DNA from: Spizellomyces punctatus DAOM BR117
Taxonomy: Eukaryota; Chytridiomycota; Chytridiomycetes; Spizellomycetales; Spizellomycetaceae
Assembly: GCF_000182565.1 (NCBI RefSeq)
Contig: NW_015971544.1
Location: forward strand, 122,622 to 186,621
DNA: 64,000 nt
Direction of reading: 5' to 3'
Shown in pieces: positions 37,150-46,700 of the stretch (its first letter is position 1; each line of letters starts with the position of its first letter). The position numbers and the translations under genes are program-made. The notes below the pieces were generated by a model. The model ran no database searches. It saw nothing but the letters and a program-made list of their open reading frames with translations, and was not told the DNA's origin.

Positions 37150-38253
37150 TTAGCGCCCAACCGGATCTGGCGAGTGTCGCCCCGTGCAATGACCCATCCT
37201 GATCTCAGCACCAGCTTCGATTTCAGGCAGCTTTCCCTGTTCATCGTGTGCAGCAGCCGTCAGAAGGAATTGCATATCGATGGTTGGTATATTGGAGTCA
37301 ATAAGATGTTCAAAGCATTTGACTGCGCCGTTCATGCCCAGTTGCTTGGCGGACACGCTTGTGAAAAAAGGTGCGAATCCAAATTGGAGCAAATGTTCTA
37401 GTATGCTCGCATCGTCTTTGCGCGCAATCTCTGTCAGGATCCTGTCGGCATGTTGCTCAACACTGAACCCGCCACTCAAAAGGAGAAGCATCATGTCCGT
37501 GTCGCCACGCCACAGGGCCTCTTCGAACGCAGTAGATATCTTCTTGTCTGCCAACGGTCCATACAACGCCTTTTCTTGAGCTGTCACAATCTTCTTATGC
37601 TCCATTTTGCGGTTGTACTTGAGGTTCGGGTTTGCGCCAGCTTGGAGCAGGATAGCGACCAATTCGAGATTACCTCGCGCAGCCGCTTCTGAGAGCGGTG
37701 TCGCACCCCAATATGTCGTGAAGGCCGTCTTTTCAGACACTTTCCAATAGGAGCAATCCGCATCCCAGTCTTCAAACCCACGAGGAAACGCACGGTCGTC
37801 GAGGGACCAATCTCGACAATCAACAAAGGCACCAGCATCCAAAAGCATGCGAACGGCTTGCCTGGCCTTCTTCCATCCACTGCCGGCTTTATCCGTACAA
37901 GCTGCATACCGTATCGCCCTCCAACCCCAGCATGCCTCCCCGTCACCGCTCGCCCGAGGCACACGTTTTAGGCCAACAGGGGCACCGAGACGGTCGAGGT
38001 GAATGACAAGTGATGCAAAAAAGGTCGGAGGACCAAAGCACTCCTTCAAGATGGCCTCATCTTCGCTCCTTGGTGCACGCACCAACTTCTCCGCCTGAAA
38101 CCGGGCAATATCGGATTCCGTGAAAAGGGCATACAAGCTTTTGCACGTCGTCCGGAATCGAGTAGTATCGGCTGTCGCGAGGTATTGAGGGATGCAAAGA
38201 AGGACCTCTGCGGGGAGAGAGTGAATGGGAGCGATGAAGTGGTCTTTTGCCAT
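37150..38253 (-). CDS. F-box and ankyrin-repeat protein
   Basis: This single exon encodes about 367 residues from ATG 38253 (MAKDHFIAPIHSLPAEVLL...). The opening HSLPAEVLLCIPQYLATADT with FRTTCKSLYALF is an F-box. Ankyrin units follow: AVRMLLDAGAFVDCRDWSL, GATPLSEAAARGNLELVAIL plus LQAGANPNL, and weaker units with EEALWRGDTDMMLLLLSGGF and ASILEHLLQFGFAP. The fold suggests a substrate receptor for an SCF ubiquitin ligase. A longer start at 38319 (adding 22 basic/aromatic residues) is possible. The target is unknown. Proteins with this arrangement are often numerous and fast-evolving in fungi, but the copy number cannot be judged here. Confidence 0.8.
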   Translation of the reverse strand: MAKDHFIAPIHSLPAEVLLCIPQYLATADTTRFRTTCKSLYALFTESDIARFQAEKLVRAPRSEDEAILKECFGPPTFFASLVIHLDRLGAPVGLKRVPRASGDGEACWGWRAIRYAACTDKAGSGWKKARQAVRMLLDAGAFVDCRDWSLDDRAFPRGFEDWDADCSYWKVSEKTAFTTYWGATPLSEAAARGNLELVAILLQAGANPNLKYNRKMEHKKIVTAQEKALYGPLADKKISTAFEEALWRGDTDMMLLLLSGGFSVEQHADRILTEIARKDDASILEHLLQFGFAPFFTSVSAKQLGMNGAVKCFEHLIDSNIPTIDMQFLLTAAAHDEQGKLPEIEAGAEIRMGHCTGRHSPDPVGR

Positions 38254-38671
38254 AATGTTTCTATTGTAAGATGACAGACGAAAGGGGGGAAATGCTCTAT
38301 CTAATCTATTTAAATGCAATGAACACCTCCTCTAAAAATAAATAAAAAAAAAAGTCGAGACAAAGAAACCCCTCCTGCCCTTCATCCAGTCTAGATTCTA
38401 AAAAAAAAAAAAAAGACGCCAAAAATAAAAAAAAGAAAGACACGCTCCGGGTCTCGTTACGTAATCATAGTGGGGAACGTGGTTGTACGACTTCACTTGT
38501 ACAGTCACGTTGGAGCGACAGTCATGCAAGCGGTTGTTTGAGTTATCGCCAAGATACTGGCCAGAGGTTGAGGTTAAAGCTAGATCGCGGCATGCAAATC
38601 TTTGGTGACGGTATGTACATGCAAAGTATTCCTTCCTATTGCCATCTTTGTGACTCGCACTCTCTGCAGCA
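38254..38671. other. Divergent intergenic region with A-rich tracts
   Basis: The region lies between the F-box/ankyrin start (minus) and the uridine kinase start (plus). It contains runs of A (about 38344-38352, 38400-38414 and shorter ones). No gene is seen. It should carry both promoters. Confidence 0.45.
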
Positions 38672-39915
38672 ATGCCAGTACAGACGTCTACTCTGGAAAC
38701 TTCGGCCTCTTTGTCGTCACTGAATGAGCCACCTCTACTATTTCCACATTCGGGCAAAGGTACCCCATTCATTATCGGAGTCGCAGGTGGTGGAAGCAGC
38801 GGTAAAAAGACCGTATGTCAAATGATAATGGACCGGCTTTTGGAGAAGGACAAGAGTGTGGGAGTAAAAGTGGTTATCATTAGGTATGCGGGCTGTCTGA
38901 CTGAGATTCTATTCGTATTTGGGGTTTTCAACCTGTTCACCGCACCATTCGATAGAATGGAGGATTTTTATCGGGAGCTAAATCGGGAGGAAATGGAGTT
39001 GGCAAAGTCCGGTGACTATAATTTCGGTGTGTCTGACATTCACTCTTGCAAATTGCCAGAACGCTTAGCTAACAAAGCATCCGCTCAACGTCCAAGATCA
39101 CCCAAATGCAGTAGACTTTGGTTTAATGGAAGAGTGTTTAGAGGACATTTTGCACGGACGTCCAGTGGACATTCCACTTTATGATTTTCAAAATCACATT
39201 CGGTGCGGTTTTGTGTGTTCAACGATTCTTACTGGAGATCTGACAAAAACGGGCCTTCATCAGGTTACCAGAGACAATGCACATTGAGCGACCGGATGTA
39301 GTCATCTTCTCAGGAATCTATATGCTGTACAAGCGACGTGTGCGGGACGTGCTAAATCTAAAGGTTGCAGATCTGGTGACCAACTTCTCACAGAATGGTG
39401 CATTACTCACAAATGTAAACTCCCTTCCTGTACAGGTGTTTGTGGATGTTGACAGTGACGTACGACTGGCACGACAAGGTGGAGTATGCAATGTTCAATT
39501 CTGCTACTATAGATATTGTAGAGGCTTACACTTGATTGTCACCAGTTGTGCGCGACACTGAGGAGCGCTATCACAAACCGCTGGAGCAAGTACTACAGTA
39601 TTACGTGAAACATGTGAAGCCCTCCTTTGAGGATTTCATCCTTCCGGTAAGATCTTTATAACTACTGACTGGGGCAGACGCGAAAGTCGAACTAATCCCG
39701 CGCAGTCCAAAAAGTTTGCCGACGTCATCATCCCCCGTGGCCAGGAGAATACAGTGGCCATTGACCTCTTGACACAGCACATTGTCGATATCCTGGATGA
39801 GCGTGCATCACAAGCGAAGCAGACGCTGGAGGCCGCAGTTGAAGTGCGAACATCTACAACATCATTGGCCACACAAGTCGGGAATGTGGACAAATTTGGA
39901 TCTTTGCCCCAGTAG
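38672..39915 (+). CDS. Uridine kinase-like P-loop kinase
   Basis: Spliced exons give [19 protein letters not shown] (Walker A, near 38772), the catalytic-loop region [24 protein letters not shown]-like residues across an intron, DIPLYDF, and [14 protein letters not shown] (hydrophobic Walker B-like strand, from 39292). [33 protein letters not shown] and FADVIIPRG then follow in family order. The end is at TAG 39913-39915. Uridine kinases phosphorylate uridine and cytidine in pyrimidine salvage. About five introns are present. The residue after the P-loop Lys is another Lys, where Thr or Ser is expected, so activity needs checking. The gene is convergent with HEN1, about 105 bp apart. Confidence 0.87.
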
Positions 39916-40021
39916 GCTATACAGATGGTTAAGCAAGAAGGACGTACTATGTCATAGATTCAATGCAATTAGCCAATTTACTATCAATATGTACAGGAAG
40001 AATACGCAAATAAAATTAGAA

Positions 40022-41635
40022 TCAGATAGTGATCCCGTCGTTCCCCCCAGGATCCTCCAGCAACCGCACCTTCTTTGGTGGAGGATTTGCGGCACTTCCA
40101 TATATAGCAATCTCTTCACCCCAACCTGCTTGGCAATCCCACTCTGCAGTGATGTGTGCAGTGCCCCAGCCCTCTCCGTCGCTATCCCGAGAAGCCTTCC
40201 ATTTAGTGTCCTTCCAGGCGCTATCATCATCCCAGTCATCGTACGCAGGACTCCCGTAGCCCCAGTCTGCGTCCTCGGTTCCATCCTCCTCTGATTCATG
40301 TTCCTTCGGTATCTCAAAGAGGATCACCACTTTTCTTTCTTCATCATTCCAAATAAAACTCTCCTTGGCCGCCGACGACGTAAAGACCTCCTCAAGACGA
40401 CCCCGCGTCTTACATAATTGTCGTATTCGCAGTATGCTCCAATACCGTTCGAAAGGAAGACACCATGTCCCCACGGCAGGCCAAGAAAGCTTCGCAGCAA
40501 GTTGATCTCGTTTTGCATCTTCGATCATTGAATACCACTCGTTCCATATCAGTGGAAATGTTTTCTCCTTCAGTTCCTGGGTGATAGCCTCGCTACTAAA
40601 TCCGCTTTCGGTGAAGTAAGGGAATTCAATTTTTGCATAATGCTTGTATGGACTTTCCGAAAGGGCGGGACAGTCATCGAGACTACTGAGCGGCGAGTCA
40701 TAGTCGCAACGTTGACGAATGAAAATTGCCACTTGCGAACAGTGACCGACGGAGAGGTCGCCAGGTTTGGATGATAGGATACCAACTCCATCAAAGGAAA
40801 CGGTATAACCAAATTTCGTTGCGGCACTATTTGCCCTACCGCCATCTGTTAACACCTCATCAGATCTGCCATTGAGAGCGCAACGAACCAGCGTTGAAAT
40901 TCATCTCGTGTCCACTCAAACCGATGATCATAGTGACGGAAGCCTGCTTCCGGTGTACCCCATTTCAGATCCGGAAAGTTAACGTTGAAGTCGCCGTTTG
41001 GCGTAGTTACGACCATGATCCGCGGCCTGTAGCCCCCGAGCGTAACCGCGGGAAAGGCTGCCAATACAGGTGGGTCCAAGTGCTCGATTCTGTGAGAAAG
41101 TAAGATCAGAGTACATTGTTAAACTCAATTTCCTTAAGACAACTCACACTTCTACACTCGTAATCGCATCGAACCCGGTGAGACTCTTATCCAATTGATC
41201 AACCGAGCCTGAGCAGATGCAATGGATCTTAATAGGACATATTCAAAAACTATCGCAACTCCTCGAACGTAGTCGCACCCTCGTATAAATTGAACTCTAC
41301 GGGAAGCTCTCTAAGGTACTGCCTGTCATAGTCGGTAGGCGCACAATTAACAGAAGCGTAACGGAGGGATTCCCCGTCAATGTCAACCCCAGCCAGTTTA
41401 CTGAATGTAGGGTCATTGAGAAGGATTTCGAGAAGCGCCCCTTCTCCACACCCAAGATCTAGGACCTGGGTCAATGACAGTCAGCTGCCATTGAGGTGGA
41501 CAACTAGTAAATGAAAGCACGTACCGACTGCACTCCATTATTCTTCAATATATGTGAAACCAGTGCCCTCCTCTGAATCCATAGGGGTGGAGAGAATAGT
41601 TGAGCGCCGTCACATCCATCTCTGGAGGAGGCCAT
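40022..41635 (-). CDS. HEN1-type small-RNA 2'-O-methyltransferase
   Basis: The start ATG at 41633-41635 opens MASSRDGCDGAQLFSPPLW, which contains the family's FSPPLxxQR signature (QLFSPPLWIQRR). The next exon has the SAM motif VLDLGCGEGALLEIL and the acidic GVDID. Later exons give VEVIEHLDPPVL, with the Glu...Glu-His metal ligands, then YRPRIMVVTTPN and RHYDHRFEWTRDEF, which supplies the remaining His ligand. The C-terminal 275 residues carry a helical region and a Trp/Asp-rich acidic tail. HEN1 proteins methylate the 3' ends of small RNAs and protect them; Dicer lies about 26 kb away on the same strand. Its 5' neighbour is the Fanzor element, 205 bp upstream. The stop is TGA at 40022-40024. 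Confidence 0.92.
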
Positions 41636-41740
41636 TTGAGAGCCGAAAGCTTGGACTGGAAAAATGTAGTACACCAGGTGGCTGGTAAATCAATTAACTT
41701 GTCATCACCGACAGTGCAGATTTTGCAGCAGCGATATCTA
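41636..41740. promoter_or_regulatory. Probable ancestral HEN1/AASDH divergent promoter
   Basis: These 105 bp lie between the HEN1 start codon and the left copy of the 13-bp repeat. If the Fanzor element is removed together with one repeat copy, this stretch directly precedes the AASDH start codon. It would then have served both divergent genes. No TATA box is evident. Confidence 0.5.
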
Positions 41741-41753
41741 ATATGACTCTTTA
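41741..41753. repeat. 13-bp direct repeat, left copy
   Basis: The sequence atatgactcttta is identical to 43714-43726. The match ends on both sides at exactly 13 bases. It borders the structured 3' end of the Fanzor unit. Confidence 0.85.
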
Positions 41754-41860
41754 GTGCGGAGCCGATGGGTATTGGCACTAGCACCCGCACCAGGGATTGA
41801 ACCGGCGACAACCGGTTCGGAAAAGGTAATCTAACTAATCTACGCTACGGCTGGAACACC
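41754..41860 (-). ncRNA. Candidate Fanzor guide-RNA scaffold / element 3' end
   Basis: On the minus strand this segment overlaps the last codons of the Fanzor frame and runs to the left direct repeat. It holds a perfect 7-bp hairpin (arms 41812-41818 and 41799-41805, 6-nt loop). It also holds a B-box-like GGTTCAATCCC (about 41793-41803) in a tRNA T-arm-like context, and a 6-bp stem pairing 41785-41790 with 41754-41759, whose outer base abuts the repeat. In TnpB and Fanzor systems the guide RNA scaffold comes from the 3' end of the gene and the element end, with the guide read from the flanking DNA. The identification is by position and structure only. Confidence 0.5.
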
Positions 41861-43636
41861 CCTGCTGAACACTTTTGGTCTACCGTGTCCATCCAACATT
41901 GATTGCACGATTGTCAGCATATTACAGGTTGCCAGCATATCTCGGTTCCAGTAGCGCATCGTCCAGGCTTGCTGCAAACAGTTAGGGTTGGTACAACCCA
42001 GCAATCCGTGGACTTTTTCCATCTTGCCTTCGCGACGGCGCCAAGGTCTTGAATGAGGTCGTTCTTTGAATTCTTTCTCGACAAACTCAGAGGATGAACA
42101 GCGAGGGCAAACAGATGAGGTCTTGTGTTCATCAAGAAGAAAACAATCAATGCGGTTGCGCTTAAAGAGGGTGCGCCAGCCTTTTGTCTTGGATGAGGTC
42201 TGAAATCTCGCAGTTCTACCGGCATCGCTCCAATCTCCCATCATAATGGTAAAGTTCCCAAACTTGTTGCGCAAGTTGGATATGAGGTTCGATTCACTCT
42301 TCTGACGGTTTATAAATGCATGCCACTTCCACCGTGTGTGGGCAGGGTGGGAGTAGAATTCCTTGCGACGATCCGAATCTGCGCGACGAACGAGAAGGTA
42401 GCGAGTAAAGTCCATGAGGTTCATCGTCTTGTGGCTTGGGATACGTGATTCTATGAGGTCAATGCCGCCGGTTTTCATCCGCTGCCGTTCTTTTGCAAAT
42501 CGACGGCTTCCAGTCTCCTTGCAGCGTTGATTGGCGGTGTAACGGAAGATGGTGCCCTTGTTGTCTTGGCAGTAGAGAATGTCGCGCTTGTTTGGATCGA
42601 TAACGACAATGTTCTCTTGACAAGCAGATAAGTTGTTTTCCACATACAGCGCCTTCACCTCAGCTGCTAGAGCCTTTGCTGACTTTTTCCCTCTGCCGCT
42701 GCGCTTTCCATACTTGTCAGCTTCAGGATGTTTCAAGTAAACTGACACCGAGGTTCCGTCCGTCGTGATCGAGCCTTCAAAACACATTCCACGACGAGAT
42801 CTAAAAGCCTTGTTCTGCAGATTACAGACGCGCAACCATAAATCGACCTTTTCGACAGTTTCCGCTTCTCGTCGCGTGATGCAAAGAAGGTGAGAGTAGA
42901 GGATGATGGTGTCGATTCGCACGTGACTTTGAATGAGCGAGCGACGAAGAGGTATGGCGCTAAACCGTCGAAATCCGTGATGCTCATAGAGTCGGGAGAG
43001 TTTGCAGTATGCAGGAAAGAAGGCGAGAGGGTCTACAGCAACCGAATATGCGAGTGGCTGGTCGTCAGAAAGGGGAATGCTAAGGGACCAAATCTCTTCT
43101 AGAAGTTCACTCTCTTCAGCAGTCAAGTCATCGAGCGACTCAGGCACGATATCAAAAAGGAAAATTGACTTCAAGTAGCGAAGACGAGCAAAGAAAGCGT
43201 TTCGCGCATCGCTTTTCAGTGGCAGTCGCTGCTTCTGTCTCTTCACATCAAGCCGCAGATTAATGTACCGGAGCAGCATCATCATGAAGTGTTCCTGGAC
43301 ATTGACCTTCAGATTCGTCATCATACTCGCTGTCAGATAATTGACTGATTGCTGCTCTTTTTGTACATTTGGATGAACGAAGCCGACGATGTTGCAGTAC
43401 CGTTGGATGTATGGCAACAAGGATTCGCGTAACGCCTTCTTCGCACCGGTTTTTGGTTGCCATGATTCACCTTTGTTGAGAAGATAGAGGATGGCTTCAA
43501 TTGTCTCTTGATTTACTGTGGGAAAGGTTGGTGCAGATAGGATGTAGAATTTGAGAGCGTGGGAAGCGTGGTCAGCAATTTGATGGATGATGGCAATGTA
43601 ATCTAGAAGACGCTGCCGGTAGGTCTCATTAGGCAA
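41840..43636 (-). CDS. Fanzor-family RNA-guided endonuclease (TnpB-related)
   Basis: A frame of 598 codons is open from the stop at 41840-41842. The C-terminal half is a split RuvC nuclease with a zinc ribbon. RuvC-I is IVVIDPNKRD with Asp at residue 347 (codon 42596-42598). The alternative RuvC-II Glu is in CFLLDEHKTS at residue 503 (42128-42130). Zinc ligands are CPRC (510/513) and CTNPNC (548/553). RuvC-III is NRDMLATCN with Asp at residue 566 (41939-41941). The N-terminal half is helical and basic, as in Fanzor1 proteins. Fanzors are eukaryotic RNA-guided DNA endonucleases. The frame is open upstream to 43723 with no ATG, so a 5' exon, a non-ATG start or truncation must be considered. The catalytic residues are all present, so it could be active. 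Confidence 0.92.
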   Translation of the reverse strand: MPNETYRQRLLDYIAIIHQIADHASHALKFYILSAPTFPTVNQETIEAILYLLNKGESWQPKTGAKKALRESLLPYIQRYCNIVGFVHPNVQKEQQSVNYLTASMMTNLKVNVQEHFMMMLLRYINLRLDVKRQKQRLPLKSDARNAFFARLRYLKSIFLFDIVPESLDDLTAEESELLEEIWSLSIPLSDDQPLAYSVAVDPLAFFPAYCKLSRLYEHHGFRRFSAIPLRRSLIQSHVRIDTIILYSHLLCITRREAETVEKVDLWLRVCNLQNKAFRSRRGMCFEGSITTDGTSVSVYLKHPEADKYGKRSGRGKKSAKALAAEVKALYVENNLSACQENIVVIDPNKRDILYCQDNKGTIFRYTANQRCKETGSRRFAKERQRMKTGGIDLIESRIPSHKTMNLMDFTRYLLVRRADSDRRKEFYSHPAHTRWKWHAFINRQKSESNLISNLRNKFGNFTIMMGDWSDAGRTARFQTSSKTKGWRTLFKRNRIDCFLLDEHKTSSVCPRCSSSEFVEKEFKERPHSRPWRRREGKMEKVHGLLGCTNPNCLQQAWTMRYWNRDMLATCNMLTIVQSMLDGHGRPKVFSRGVPAVA

Positions 43637-43713
43637 GAAAGCCTTTCCAAAGGACGTTTTGTTACAGGTATGTAAGGTGGGTTTGTCGAGTTTTTCGAGT
43701 TTTAAGGAAAAGC

Positions 43714-43726
43714 ATATGACTCTTTA
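43714..43726. repeat. 13-bp direct repeat, right copy
   Basis: The sequence atatgactcttta here includes the ATG of AASDH (43717-43719). Because MTL is also how animal AASDH begins, this copy is probably the original target and the left copy the duplicate. Confidence 0.85.
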
Positions 43727-46700
43727 TGCAAAAATATTAACAAATGCGGGAATATGTCCGAATAATGTAGCGGTTATTGCGGAAGAAGAGACTACTGGCG
43801 ATGCACATCAGCGGCTTGTCAAGCTTACCTACCGGGATGTTGTCTCACAAGTTGAACAATTATCGTTAGAATTCAAGCGGTTTGGGGTGAGTGGACCAGA
43901 GACTGACGAGGGGCGACATTAAAATAACAGAACATCCAGATTCAACGCTTCAGCTATGTCGCAACGATAATGAGCAGCTCCTACTCACTTGTCATCACGC
44001 TATTAAGGTAAGCCTGGGCGGTCCTCTTCGTCAACTTGGTGGCAAAAATCCCTTATTCGTGCAGTCTTTTCCAGCTGGGTGCTACGTATTTCCCTTTATC
44101 TGCACACACTCGCTCGCTAATTCATAGCGCGGCTACGATACAACGGATGCCCAAGTTACGATATGTACTATGTAAACGTTCCACGGCGGAAGTAAGTCTT
44201 GATTGATCCTCATCGATTCGGCAAGTGTTTGATGTTGGCGTAGAGGGTCCCCAAGGAAATCGAGCGAGTACGCATTGAAAACGTCTTCTCACTTCCTGGA
44301 TACTGCCTTTTGGTGCGAGATGAAGTGATCAAAGGTACAGGAGTTCTCGAGTGTATTACTTGGGATCTAAAGTTTAATGAGCCTATTGGGCCAGACCATG
44401 AGGAAGCCTTTGAGTCAGTAAATCTCGCCTACATCATCCAAACTTCCGGAACTACCAGGAATGGAAGAGGCATGCCAGTTCGGGTGCCACATAAGTGTAT
44501 TGCCGGAAATATAACCGCCATAGGGTGCGTGCGATAGATCCGCGATTATCTGCCGAACGTATAGGACTAAATTCCTCATCAGCAAGCGTCTAAACGGAAA
44601 CTCTACTCCTATTGTGACCTTGCAAGTTTCCGCCCCGACGTTTGACCCATCTTTGGTAGAAATGCTACTTCCCTTAACCACGAAAGGCACCATTGTCATT
44701 CCTCTCCACGACACACTCTTGAATCCGCCAATGCTGTTCGATATGATTCGAAGAACTGCAGTGACCCATCTGTTCATGACTCCGTCGCTATTCATGCAAT
44801 TTGATTCGGCAGACCAATCAAAATTGCTGGCGGCTGAGACGACTGTCCGCGACATCATTCTTGGGGGAGAGCCATTCCCAATTAGTTTAGTGAACGAGCG
44901 AAGATCTTCACTGGTGAATTTGTGGAATATATATGGCACTACGGAGTGCTCCGTCTGGGCGACTTTACAAAAGGTCGATAAAACGCCGGTCAGCATTGGA
45001 GAGGCTTTAGACGATACAGAAATATGTGTGCCAAACATGCAGAGGAACACTGGCGAATTATGGATTGGAGGACCGAAGCGGATATGTTATGTAGGAGACG
45101 AAGTCAAAGGGGAAAGGTAGGACGCCAAAGCTACTTCGTTGATTCCAACATCTTACACGGAGCAGCCTTAGGCCTACTGGTGACCTTGTTCACATTGATT
45201 CTCTTACGAATGTAATGACCTATATGGGGCGAACGAGCAATTCAATTAAACGGCTAGGTTACCGAATAAATCTGGAAGTTATTGCAGGAGCGATTGATGT
45301 TGTTCCGGGGGTAGTTCGCAGCGAGTGAGTACCTGCTTCATCACACATTTTCAGAATATACTTAACCTTTGTAATGAATAGGGCCATCTATGTGGACCGT
45401 ACCCGGAGCTTTTGTCCTACTACTCTTGTAGCATTTGTGGTAGCCCAGTGCAGAGACCGGAACCCAGTGCAATTGAGACATGCTATTGGCCAGCTGCTCG
45501 AAAAAACCCTTCCTTTCTATGCGCGACCGGATTATGTATTTTTTATAGATGACATTCCCATGACCCACCATGGCAAGGTTCGTTGAGTCTCATTCGCTCT
45601 CAGTGTCGAATCAACTTACCAATCAGAAGCATAGACGGATAGGACTGCTCTTTTGAGGATCTGGGAGGACAGAAGGAGGGTAGTTCACGAGTCTGGTCCA
45701 AGTCAATCATTGTCCAGGACCGATGTAGAGCGTCACGTACTCACCACACTAGCAAACCAAGTACCCTCGAGCCCTCAAGGTCGCGATTGGTGGTTTTTGT
45801 CCGAAGGAGGAACTAGTATTGATGCAGCAAAAGTCACTGAGGACCTACTTCGCTGGATAGGTACCTCTTCGTTGAGCACCTGATACAGAAACAGCGTGTC
45901 TAATACTTTCCATCAGCACTATCAGCAGCAAAGAGAAATAAGCCCGATGTGGAGCTGGACATGATTCGTCCAATCCTCCTTACTCGCATTCTCCACAATG
46001 CGGCCAGCGAGGTGGTAGCATATGTTACTCAACTGCTGAATTCTGACGAACCTCTGTCATCCACCGTTCGAAAACGATCTCGCCCTTCTTCTGTAGGGGA
46101 TTCAATCACCTCATGCAGACAGCGTCAGTGTCTGGATGAGAGCGAAGATCGCGCTGGCATTCTCATCGTACGTCGTACAATGGAGGCTACAACACGCTCT
46201 CATGAACATCATGATCGACATCGAGAACTCCAGAAAAAACTCAAGCTTAGAGTTCAGTGGAAGGTCAATCTAGAGAAATGCGTGGATGCCTCCCCAGTTT
46301 TACTGATCAAAGCCGAGGATGAGCGGTTAGTGTGTTTCTGGTCTTCACTTCCTCCGAAATCATCTGATCTATCGCCGCTGTTCCAGGCAGGTTCTCATGA
46401 CTTATATCGGTTCCCATGCCGGTATTTTCAGTGCGATCGACGTGCTCACCGGAACATTGATTTGGCAAGCGCAAATACGAGGCAGGATTGAGAGTAGTGC
46501 GTGCGTCACACGTGATGGAAAGGTGGTTGTTGTCGGTAAGTCTTGCTTGCGAGGCCGTTCCAGCTAGGTGTCTAGTGGTAAATGTTTAGAGATAGGGTCC
46601 TACGATTTCCGAGTGTATGCTTTCAGTACGACGTCAGGAGCCATTATCGGGACTTATGCCACGGACGGTGAAGTCAAGAGTTCGCCTGTAACTGATAAAT

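Follow-up and report, generated by a model that had tools for sequence, protein, structure and literature searches.

Why is a Fanzor gene in the chytrid Spizellomyces punctatus DAOM BR117 flanked by two identical 13-bp sequences, one of which contains the start codon of the neighboring gene AASDH? The question arises in a 64,000-nucleotide stretch of contig NW_015971544.1 (hereafter, the window), where the 13-mer ATATGACTCTTTA occurs at 41741-41753 and 43714-43726, and at no third site with up to two mismatches. A first-pass annotation of the window, which had placed both exact copies correctly, viewed the left one as a target-site duplication or a sequence carried by the element, and the interval between them as a unit of about 1.96 kb. 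In this report, we describe that interval as a truncated derivative of the SPu-1 transposon family, not a complete element. We estimate a probability of about 70% that this 5'-truncated element was left by incomplete Fanzor homing, in which the nuclease would have cut an uninserted allele and copying from an inserted allele would have halted before the 5' end of the element was reached.

SPu-1 was described as an element of ~2.1 kb with 33-bp inverted repeats and putative TA duplications (Bao and Jurka 2013, PMC3627910). For the strain studied here, Saito et al. (2023, PMC10432273) counted 134 ghost elements and 42 Fanzor loci, 19 of them full-length, and reported a conserved CA before the 5' end of SPu-1 elements. 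According to the same paper, the omega RNA consists of a 75-nt scaffold at the element 3' end and a guide of 14-15 nt taken from the flank, and the target-adjacent motif (TAM) of the protein SpuFz1 is CATA. Cleavage by SpuFz1 occurs after bases 16-17 on the non-target strand and 20-21 on the target strand, leaving 5' overhangs; in human cells, a guide of 10 nt gave minimal activity, and a plateau was reached at ~13 nt (PMC10432273). One sentence of a further paper (PMC11423790) swaps the TAMs of GtFz1 and SpuFz1, after which TTAA is named as the GtFz1 motif; we follow PMC10432273 in taking CATA as the SpuFz1 TAM.

A 5'-truncated SPu-1 element beside AASDH

The Fanzor1 gene between the repeats has SpuFz1 as its closest PDB match (features of the locus are listed in Table 1). 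In the genome as a whole, 72 Fanzor protein matches were found, and 40 element 3' ends were scored out of 157 candidates. Full-length copies read CATA followed by GTGCGGAGCC at the 5' end, and GGCTCCGCAC followed by TA and unique flanking sequence at the 3' end. Among copies aligning from the first or second base, 12 of 13 are preceded by CATA (or CATAA) and one by ATATA; one 3' flank is masked. At its 3' end, the window copy agrees with the family: 33 of 39 other scored copies align across all 111 bases, with 88-99% identity, the 3' inverted repeat is intact, and the omega RNA scaffold, as recognized from its sequence, ends at TA. By our own reading of the nucleotide numbering in PMC10432273 against the window, the scaffold appears to include this TA.

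The 5' end is missing. The window copy starts at approximately position 182 of a full-length copy. It lacks the 5' inverted repeat, the 5' leader, and the start codon; about seven initial codons are gone, and with them most of the basic N-terminal MPPKKKQK. The expected 33-bp inverted repeats are therefore represented by the 3' one only. Read in the sense of the Fanzor gene, the order is TTTTTGCA, TAAAGAGTCATAT, GCTTTTCCTT, the cut-back element, its 3' inverted repeat, TAAAGAGTCATAT again, and TAGATATCGC. Because homology to the element starts only at ~43703, we regard the 10 bases at 43704-43713 as filler. The supposed 1.96-kb unit is thus the remnant of a 2.1-kb element that has lost its 5' end, together with 10 bases of filler.

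The 13-bp repeat consists of TA plus guide bases 1 to 11. On the left, only the TA (41752-41753) adjoins the conserved element end. Elsewhere in the genome, this end has 40 further matches, and in 34 of them the similarity breaks off at 41751 or 41752. The left copy is therefore target sequence, in line with one of the two first-pass readings, and not element sequence. The copy on the AASDH side keeps the sequence of the uninserted site as far as guide base 11. It contains the AASDH start codon (43716-43718, plus strand), and the ancestral insertion point, the TA at 43725-43726, lies inside AASDH codon 4 (ATG ACT CTT TAT). We consider this copy ancestral because the position of the AASDH start is kept in relatives that reach the N terminus: in the three of seven fetched relatives that do so (P0001, P0003, and P0009), a by-eye alignment anchored on the subsequent [LVI][ST]Y places the start at most about one residue off. 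The original proposals that this copy holds a conserved start codon, and that the repeat is connected with the insertion of the Fanzor element, with the AASDH side preceding it, thus stand. Both TA and CATA are at their expected places in the window copy, but within a longer repeat. A full-length insertion at codon 4 splits AASDH; in the observed product, both the start codon and codon 4 are intact.

A chance match of 13 bases between two 100-bp flanks has a computed probability of ~1.2e-4, in close agreement with the earlier estimate of once in several thousand trials. When the match must be anchored at the element end and lie no more than 30 bp from the break, this value falls to ~4e-7. Across the 24.0-Mb genome, there are three exact occurrences of the 13-mer, the third on a different contig.

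Repeats on other element copies in the genome

The model was written down from the window copy alone, with the prediction that truncated copies elsewhere would carry a TA-anchored repeat and full-length ones would not; the five other cases reported below, all ghosts, were read afterward. Ghosts were sought with an omega RNA pattern, which gave ten candidates, nine of them ghosts, and by their 3' end, which gave 144 matches versus 25 in a reversed control, with 100 places listed. Of the ghost loci found, 35 were read. A repeat was present in three of the nine pattern-found ghosts, in two of twenty taken in list order (already-read and chance-like matches left out), and in none of six chosen for having no exact 5' end nearby (the 5' end of L111 lay outside the stretch read). 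These last six are a nonrandom sample, given how they were picked. Altogether, 78 unique 3' ends were compared, 39 ending like Fanzor copies and 39 like ghosts. L087 was judged not to be a ghost and was dropped. Four further pattern finds (L066, L067, L069, and L070) are not clear elements and were not used as evidence, although L066, where no repeat was seen, was kept among the 78 because its end matched the filter.

For each end, the 3' flank was compared with upstream sequence from TA onward; the longest match gave the repeat length, and a repeat was scored at 10 bp or more. Six of the 78 ends carry such a repeat, namely the window copy and ghosts at C7:749238, C10:250207, C12 near 828.0 kb, C2:1071455, and C2:1341361; the next longest matches are 8, 7, and 7 bp, and the rest are at most 6 bp. 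The 8-bp match, at L099, was set aside as being at chance level (0.7 expected). When flanks were paired with mismatched upstream sequences, two of 6006 pairs matched over at least 10 bp, which corresponds to 0.026 expected cases versus six observed.

The longest exact repeat, at L086, has 15 bp (TA+13) and a blunt junction. Repeats of 13 bp are found at L088 (2-nt microhomology at the junction), at L089 (1-nt microhomology), and at the window copy with its 10-nt filler. L101, a ghost of which only about the last 49 bp remain, has 11 bp exactly, or 17-18 bp with one mismatch (TA + 15/16), and 1-nt microhomology. At L104, the repeat is 10 bp and the microhomology 3 nt. The junctions were assigned by eye. 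With filler, blunt ends, or 1-3 nt of microhomology, the six junctions look like end joining.

Three regularities connect these cases. First, in five of six, the repeat begins exactly at the TA beside the 3' end and its other copy is preceded by CA; L104 departs from the CA part. CA precedes the 5' copy in 5/6 cases versus 474/5840 TA dinucleotides (8%) in the window (p = 2e-5), and CATA precedes the 5' end in 30/39 copies that have a 5' inverted repeat. Second, the tails are short, TA+8 to TA+13 exactly. All six are at most 16 bases and shorter than the SpuFz1 cut; the tail lies within the cut position (16-17, at most 20-21) in every case. Third, the repeat goes with loss of the 5' end. It is present in 0/39 copies with a 5' inverted repeat (at most two errors in 16) versus 6/39 others (Fisher two-sided p = 0.025). 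Truncation classes were called by eye: of the 39 ends lacking a 5' inverted repeat by this cut-off, 11 are cleanly truncated, and 28 are interrupted, out of range, degenerate, or unresolved. The repeat is carried by six of the 11 cleanly truncated copies.

These results do not fit a target-site duplication made by this transposon, one of the readings in the first-pass annotation. The family makes a TA duplication only, and a repeat of at least 10 bp is absent from all 39 copies in which a 5' inverted repeat is recognized. An ordinary duplication of fixed length was likewise rejected, since it would have one length in all copies, full-length ones included, which is not the case here.

Other Fanzor copies with a complete 3' end and an incomplete 5' end at first looked like further truncations. 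Most of those examined were, by eye, not counted as such, because their 5' junctions are sequences common to several loci or foldback palindromes. Judged by eye, these junctions are other mobile elements inserted into Fanzor; in several such copies, the missing 5' half is present further upstream. The interrupting elements at L024/L050, L062, L040, and L039 have foldback-like ends: long palindromes, perfect or nearly so, whose sequences differ. At L068 (C1:1430673-1431769), the Fanzor interior of a Spu-1 element has been replaced by a foreign insert with the ends TGTGAAAGGG and CCCTTTCACA. L071 (C14:356163) is a decayed 143-bp fragment of a Fanzor-element 3' end that stops, by eye, ~16 bp before a gene-start-like ATG. 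Further elements (L096, L098, L100, L104, L111, C10:4940, and C9:735320) are mosaics of ghost-family parts or Fanzor copies with ghost-type 3' ends, and look from their sequences as if copying had switched templates.

Proposed incomplete homing and its alternatives

In a process of incomplete homing, the cut, the direction of copying, and the joining, all read here from the finished structures, would take the following course. A full-length SPu-1 element would have been present at CA-TA in AASDH codon 4 of one chromosome, and its omega RNA would have carried as guide the sequence just past the element 3' end. Because the guide comes from the 3' flank, SpuFz1 could recognize the uninserted allele (CATA plus guide target), not the inserted one. 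It would then cut the uninserted allele inside the guide target. The TAM-distal end, which would match the inserted allele up to the cut, could prime copying of the element in the 3'-to-5' direction, whereas the TAM-proximal end, whose tail of up to 16-17 guide-target bases would have no match, could not readily prime. If copying halted before the 5' end, the new strand would be joined to this tail via filler or 0-3 bases of microhomology. The product would be CATA and a guide prefix, a truncated element, and then TA and the guide; at AASDH, the tail would restore the start codon and codon 4.

From the inequality of the two ends, one would predict 3'-to-5' copying, 5' truncation on failure, and a tail of guide target after the TAM. 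The tails may be limited to 11 exact bases or fewer in five of six cases because products that keep at least 13 guide bases would be cut again. Moreover, the tail equals the pre-insertion site without a footprint, so the cut chromosome was probably never occupied, which points to homing and not to recovery after excision, unless excision is precise. For the ghosts, the nuclease would have to act in trans. The omega RNAs of four ghost loci were functional with SpuFz1 in human cells (PMC10432273), which is what such action needs.

A comparable anatomy has been reported for the elements CRe-1, CRe-2, and CRe-3 of Chlamydomonas reinhardtii (PMC3627910). Copies at the consensus 5' end have no duplication, whereas most others, especially 5'-truncated ones, duplicate ~7-19 bp and in a few cases 44-443 bp. 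These duplications directly follow TTTT or T-rich motifs, with additional bases in some cases, and occur in ~70% of CRe-1 (150 loci), 57% of CRe-2 (70), and 10% of CRe-3 (35) copies, versus 1/200 for a Fanzor-less Helitron (PMC3627910). Thus, these elements resemble the copies described here in 5' truncation, an intact 3' end, duplications of ~7-19 bp after an insertion motif, and occasional filler. Unlike SPu-1, they have a Helitron-type backbone and a few much longer duplications, and the 2013 proposal for them was one-ended transposition, with no guide-RNA reading.

Several observations weigh against incomplete homing. No repeat, even with three mismatches in 13, was found at five truncated places (L071; C16:572456, which is L073/L074; the second copy of L083; L113; and L115). 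The two-error cut-off for the 5' inverted repeat was chosen after the table had been seen, and with the script's own three-error cut-off, the counts become 2/46 versus 4/32 (p = 0.22). The two copies that shift are L089 and L104, where a loose chance match falls within the element (~250 bases in, for L104) and not at its 5' end; on this basis we take the repeat to be confined to 5'-truncated copies. The weakest case is the 10-bp repeat of L104, which has GATA, within a CGATA tract, in place of CATA. Since exact matching stops short of the cut position in every repeat, trimming of the tail must be assumed. The few long Chlamydomonas duplications (44-443 bp) misfit a simple cut-limited tail, and the shortness of Fanzor-less Helitrons may explain why duplications are so rare in them; the authors left open whether this shortness or Fanzor causes the difference (PMC3627910). 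Finally, L088, L089, and L104 (three of five truncated ghosts) lost only ~39-49 bp, just past the 5' inverted repeat, which the homing model does not predict without a further cause. Together with the case of L104, these small losses are where the model is weakest.

Such small losses would be expected if the transposase were responsible. In this scheme, a 5' cut of Tc1/mariner type is followed by chewing back of the element, the flank briefly copies 8-16 bases of an uninserted homologue, and the ends are joined, all with no Fanzor cut. The final structure would be the same. However, nothing in the scheme limits the copied stretch to 8-16 bases, yet all six cases fall there, and it does not account for duplications being common in Chlamydomonas elements with Fanzor and rare (1/200) in a Fanzor-less, although short, relative (PMC3627910). 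Tail length and this comparison are mainly what separate transposase-cut repair from homing, and on their basis we judge it unlikely.

Truncation at the 5' end, an intact 3' end, and duplications of 10-18 bp are typical of reverse transcription as carried out by long interspersed nuclear elements (LINEs). If a Fanzor or omega RNA transcript had been inserted in this way, the 13 bp would be a true target-site duplication. The junctions speak otherwise. In place of a tail or a variable 3' end, all six show the exact DNA-transposon end plus TA, and in 5/6 the 5' copy follows CA (8% of window TA), that is, it occupies the transposon's own site. In addition, omega RNA transcripts extend 14-15 nt beyond the conserved region (PMC10432273), so sequence from the donor flank should be present at the junction. 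We find this explanation quite improbable.

One-ended or rolling-circle transposition, which Bao and Jurka proposed for the Chlamydomonas copies, would yield the same 3'-anchored pattern of truncation. Nevertheless, SPu-1 is not a Helitron but has inverted repeats and TA duplications, and the appearance of one anatomy in two unrelated backbones that share Fanzor argues for Fanzor as the cause, which makes this mode very improbable. Coincidence, or a local duplication unrelated to the element, for which we found no favorable point, has a negligible probability given six repeats where 0.026 were expected, all beginning exactly at the element boundary.

Significance, related systems, and further features

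The natural role of Fanzor was left open in the discussion of Saito et al. (2023, PMC10432273) and by Xu (2024). We lean toward the view that Fanzor is a natural homing nuclease that cuts pristine, uninserted alleles at its own sites and at those of ghosts, with the result that the element is copied in, and that TAM-anchored repeats on 5'-truncated copies are its diagnostic scars, the duplications of 7-19 bp in the unrelated Chlamydomonas transposon included. If so, ordinary genome sequence would preserve a record, exact to the base pair, of cutting by Fanzor in the native host, and counting scars in any genome with Fanzor elements would make its role testable. Because the retained tail is a footprint-free pre-insertion site, such scars would distinguish homing into uninserted alleles from post-excision recovery. 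They also point to copying of ghost elements in trans. At AASDH, incomplete repair would have had the side effect of sparing the host gene, by keeping its start codon in place.

The window copy shares with published SPu-1 and SpuFz1 (Bao and Jurka 2013; Saito et al. 2023) the genome, the protein family, the 3' inverted repeat, the omega RNA, and probably CATA insertion with TA duplication. It differs in lacking the 5' inverted repeat and the start codon and in being flanked by TA plus 11 guide bases; copies flanked by such repeats are not described for SPu-1 in the available portions of these two papers. Ghost Spu-1 elements likewise share the genome, the omega RNA, and CATA, and five carry the same type of repeat, but unlike the window copy, they are noncoding and have no Fanzor gene. 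Neither their truncation nor the repeat is described in the available text of Saito et al. (2023). The closest mechanistic parallel lies in bacteria, where cut-and-copy by TnpB of IS200/IS605 elements also combines an RNA-guided cut of the element-free site with repair from the element-bearing copy (PMC10432273). Here, in contrast, the host is a eukaryote, the element has inverted repeats and a TA duplication, and incomplete repair would have been sealed by end joining, leaving a readable scar. A reading of such repeats as Fanzor scars was not found in the open-access literature, which was searched through listings, abstract openings, and passages of selected papers and does not include most subscription papers.

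Table 1. Features of the Fanzor copy and its flanks, by window position
Feature	Position	Strand	Remarks
Omega RNA guide (AAGAGTCATATTAGA), the 15 nt that follow TA directly	41737-41751	-	Guide length from PMC10432273
3' copy of the 13-bp repeat: TA (41752-41753) and guide bases 1-11 (41741-41751)	41741-41753	-	
Putative omega RNA scaffold, 74 nt here (75 in the published one), ending in TA	41752-41825	-	Assigned by sequence
3' terminal inverted repeat, 33 bp	41754-41786	-	
Fanzor1 coding remnant, open to the stop	41840-43703	-	86% identical to S. punctatus protein P0016
Filler at the 5' junction, 10 bp (GCTTTTCCTT)	43704-43713	-	
5' copy of the 13-bp repeat (TA and guide bases 1-11), representing the uninserted site	43714-43726	-	
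AASDH first exon, start conserved in position	43716-43886	+	3' border by eye from GTGAGT donor
CATA, SpuFz1 TAM, at the ancestral insertion point	43725-43728	-	Motif from PMC10432273

Within the omega RNA region, the minus strand has sequences at 41793-41803 and 41825-41842 (TAGCGTAGATTAGTTAGA and GGTTCAATCCC) that resemble what we take to be the A and B box motifs of transfer RNA (tRNA) genes, and the region may be transcribed by RNA polymerase III. A reading of the element 3' end as a tRNA or a short interspersed nuclear element was rejected, as ARAGORN gave no tRNA in the window. A loose-threshold Rfam search of 38000-46000 returned two sub-threshold matches, both outside the element.

On the right, AASDH encodes an AMP-binding enzyme with chytrid relatives, several of which combine AMP-binding and PQQ-repeat parts. 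On the left, the first-pass identification of HEN1, on the minus strand, was confirmed. By our own reading, its likely ATG is at 41635, ~107 bp from the ATG in the left repeat copy.

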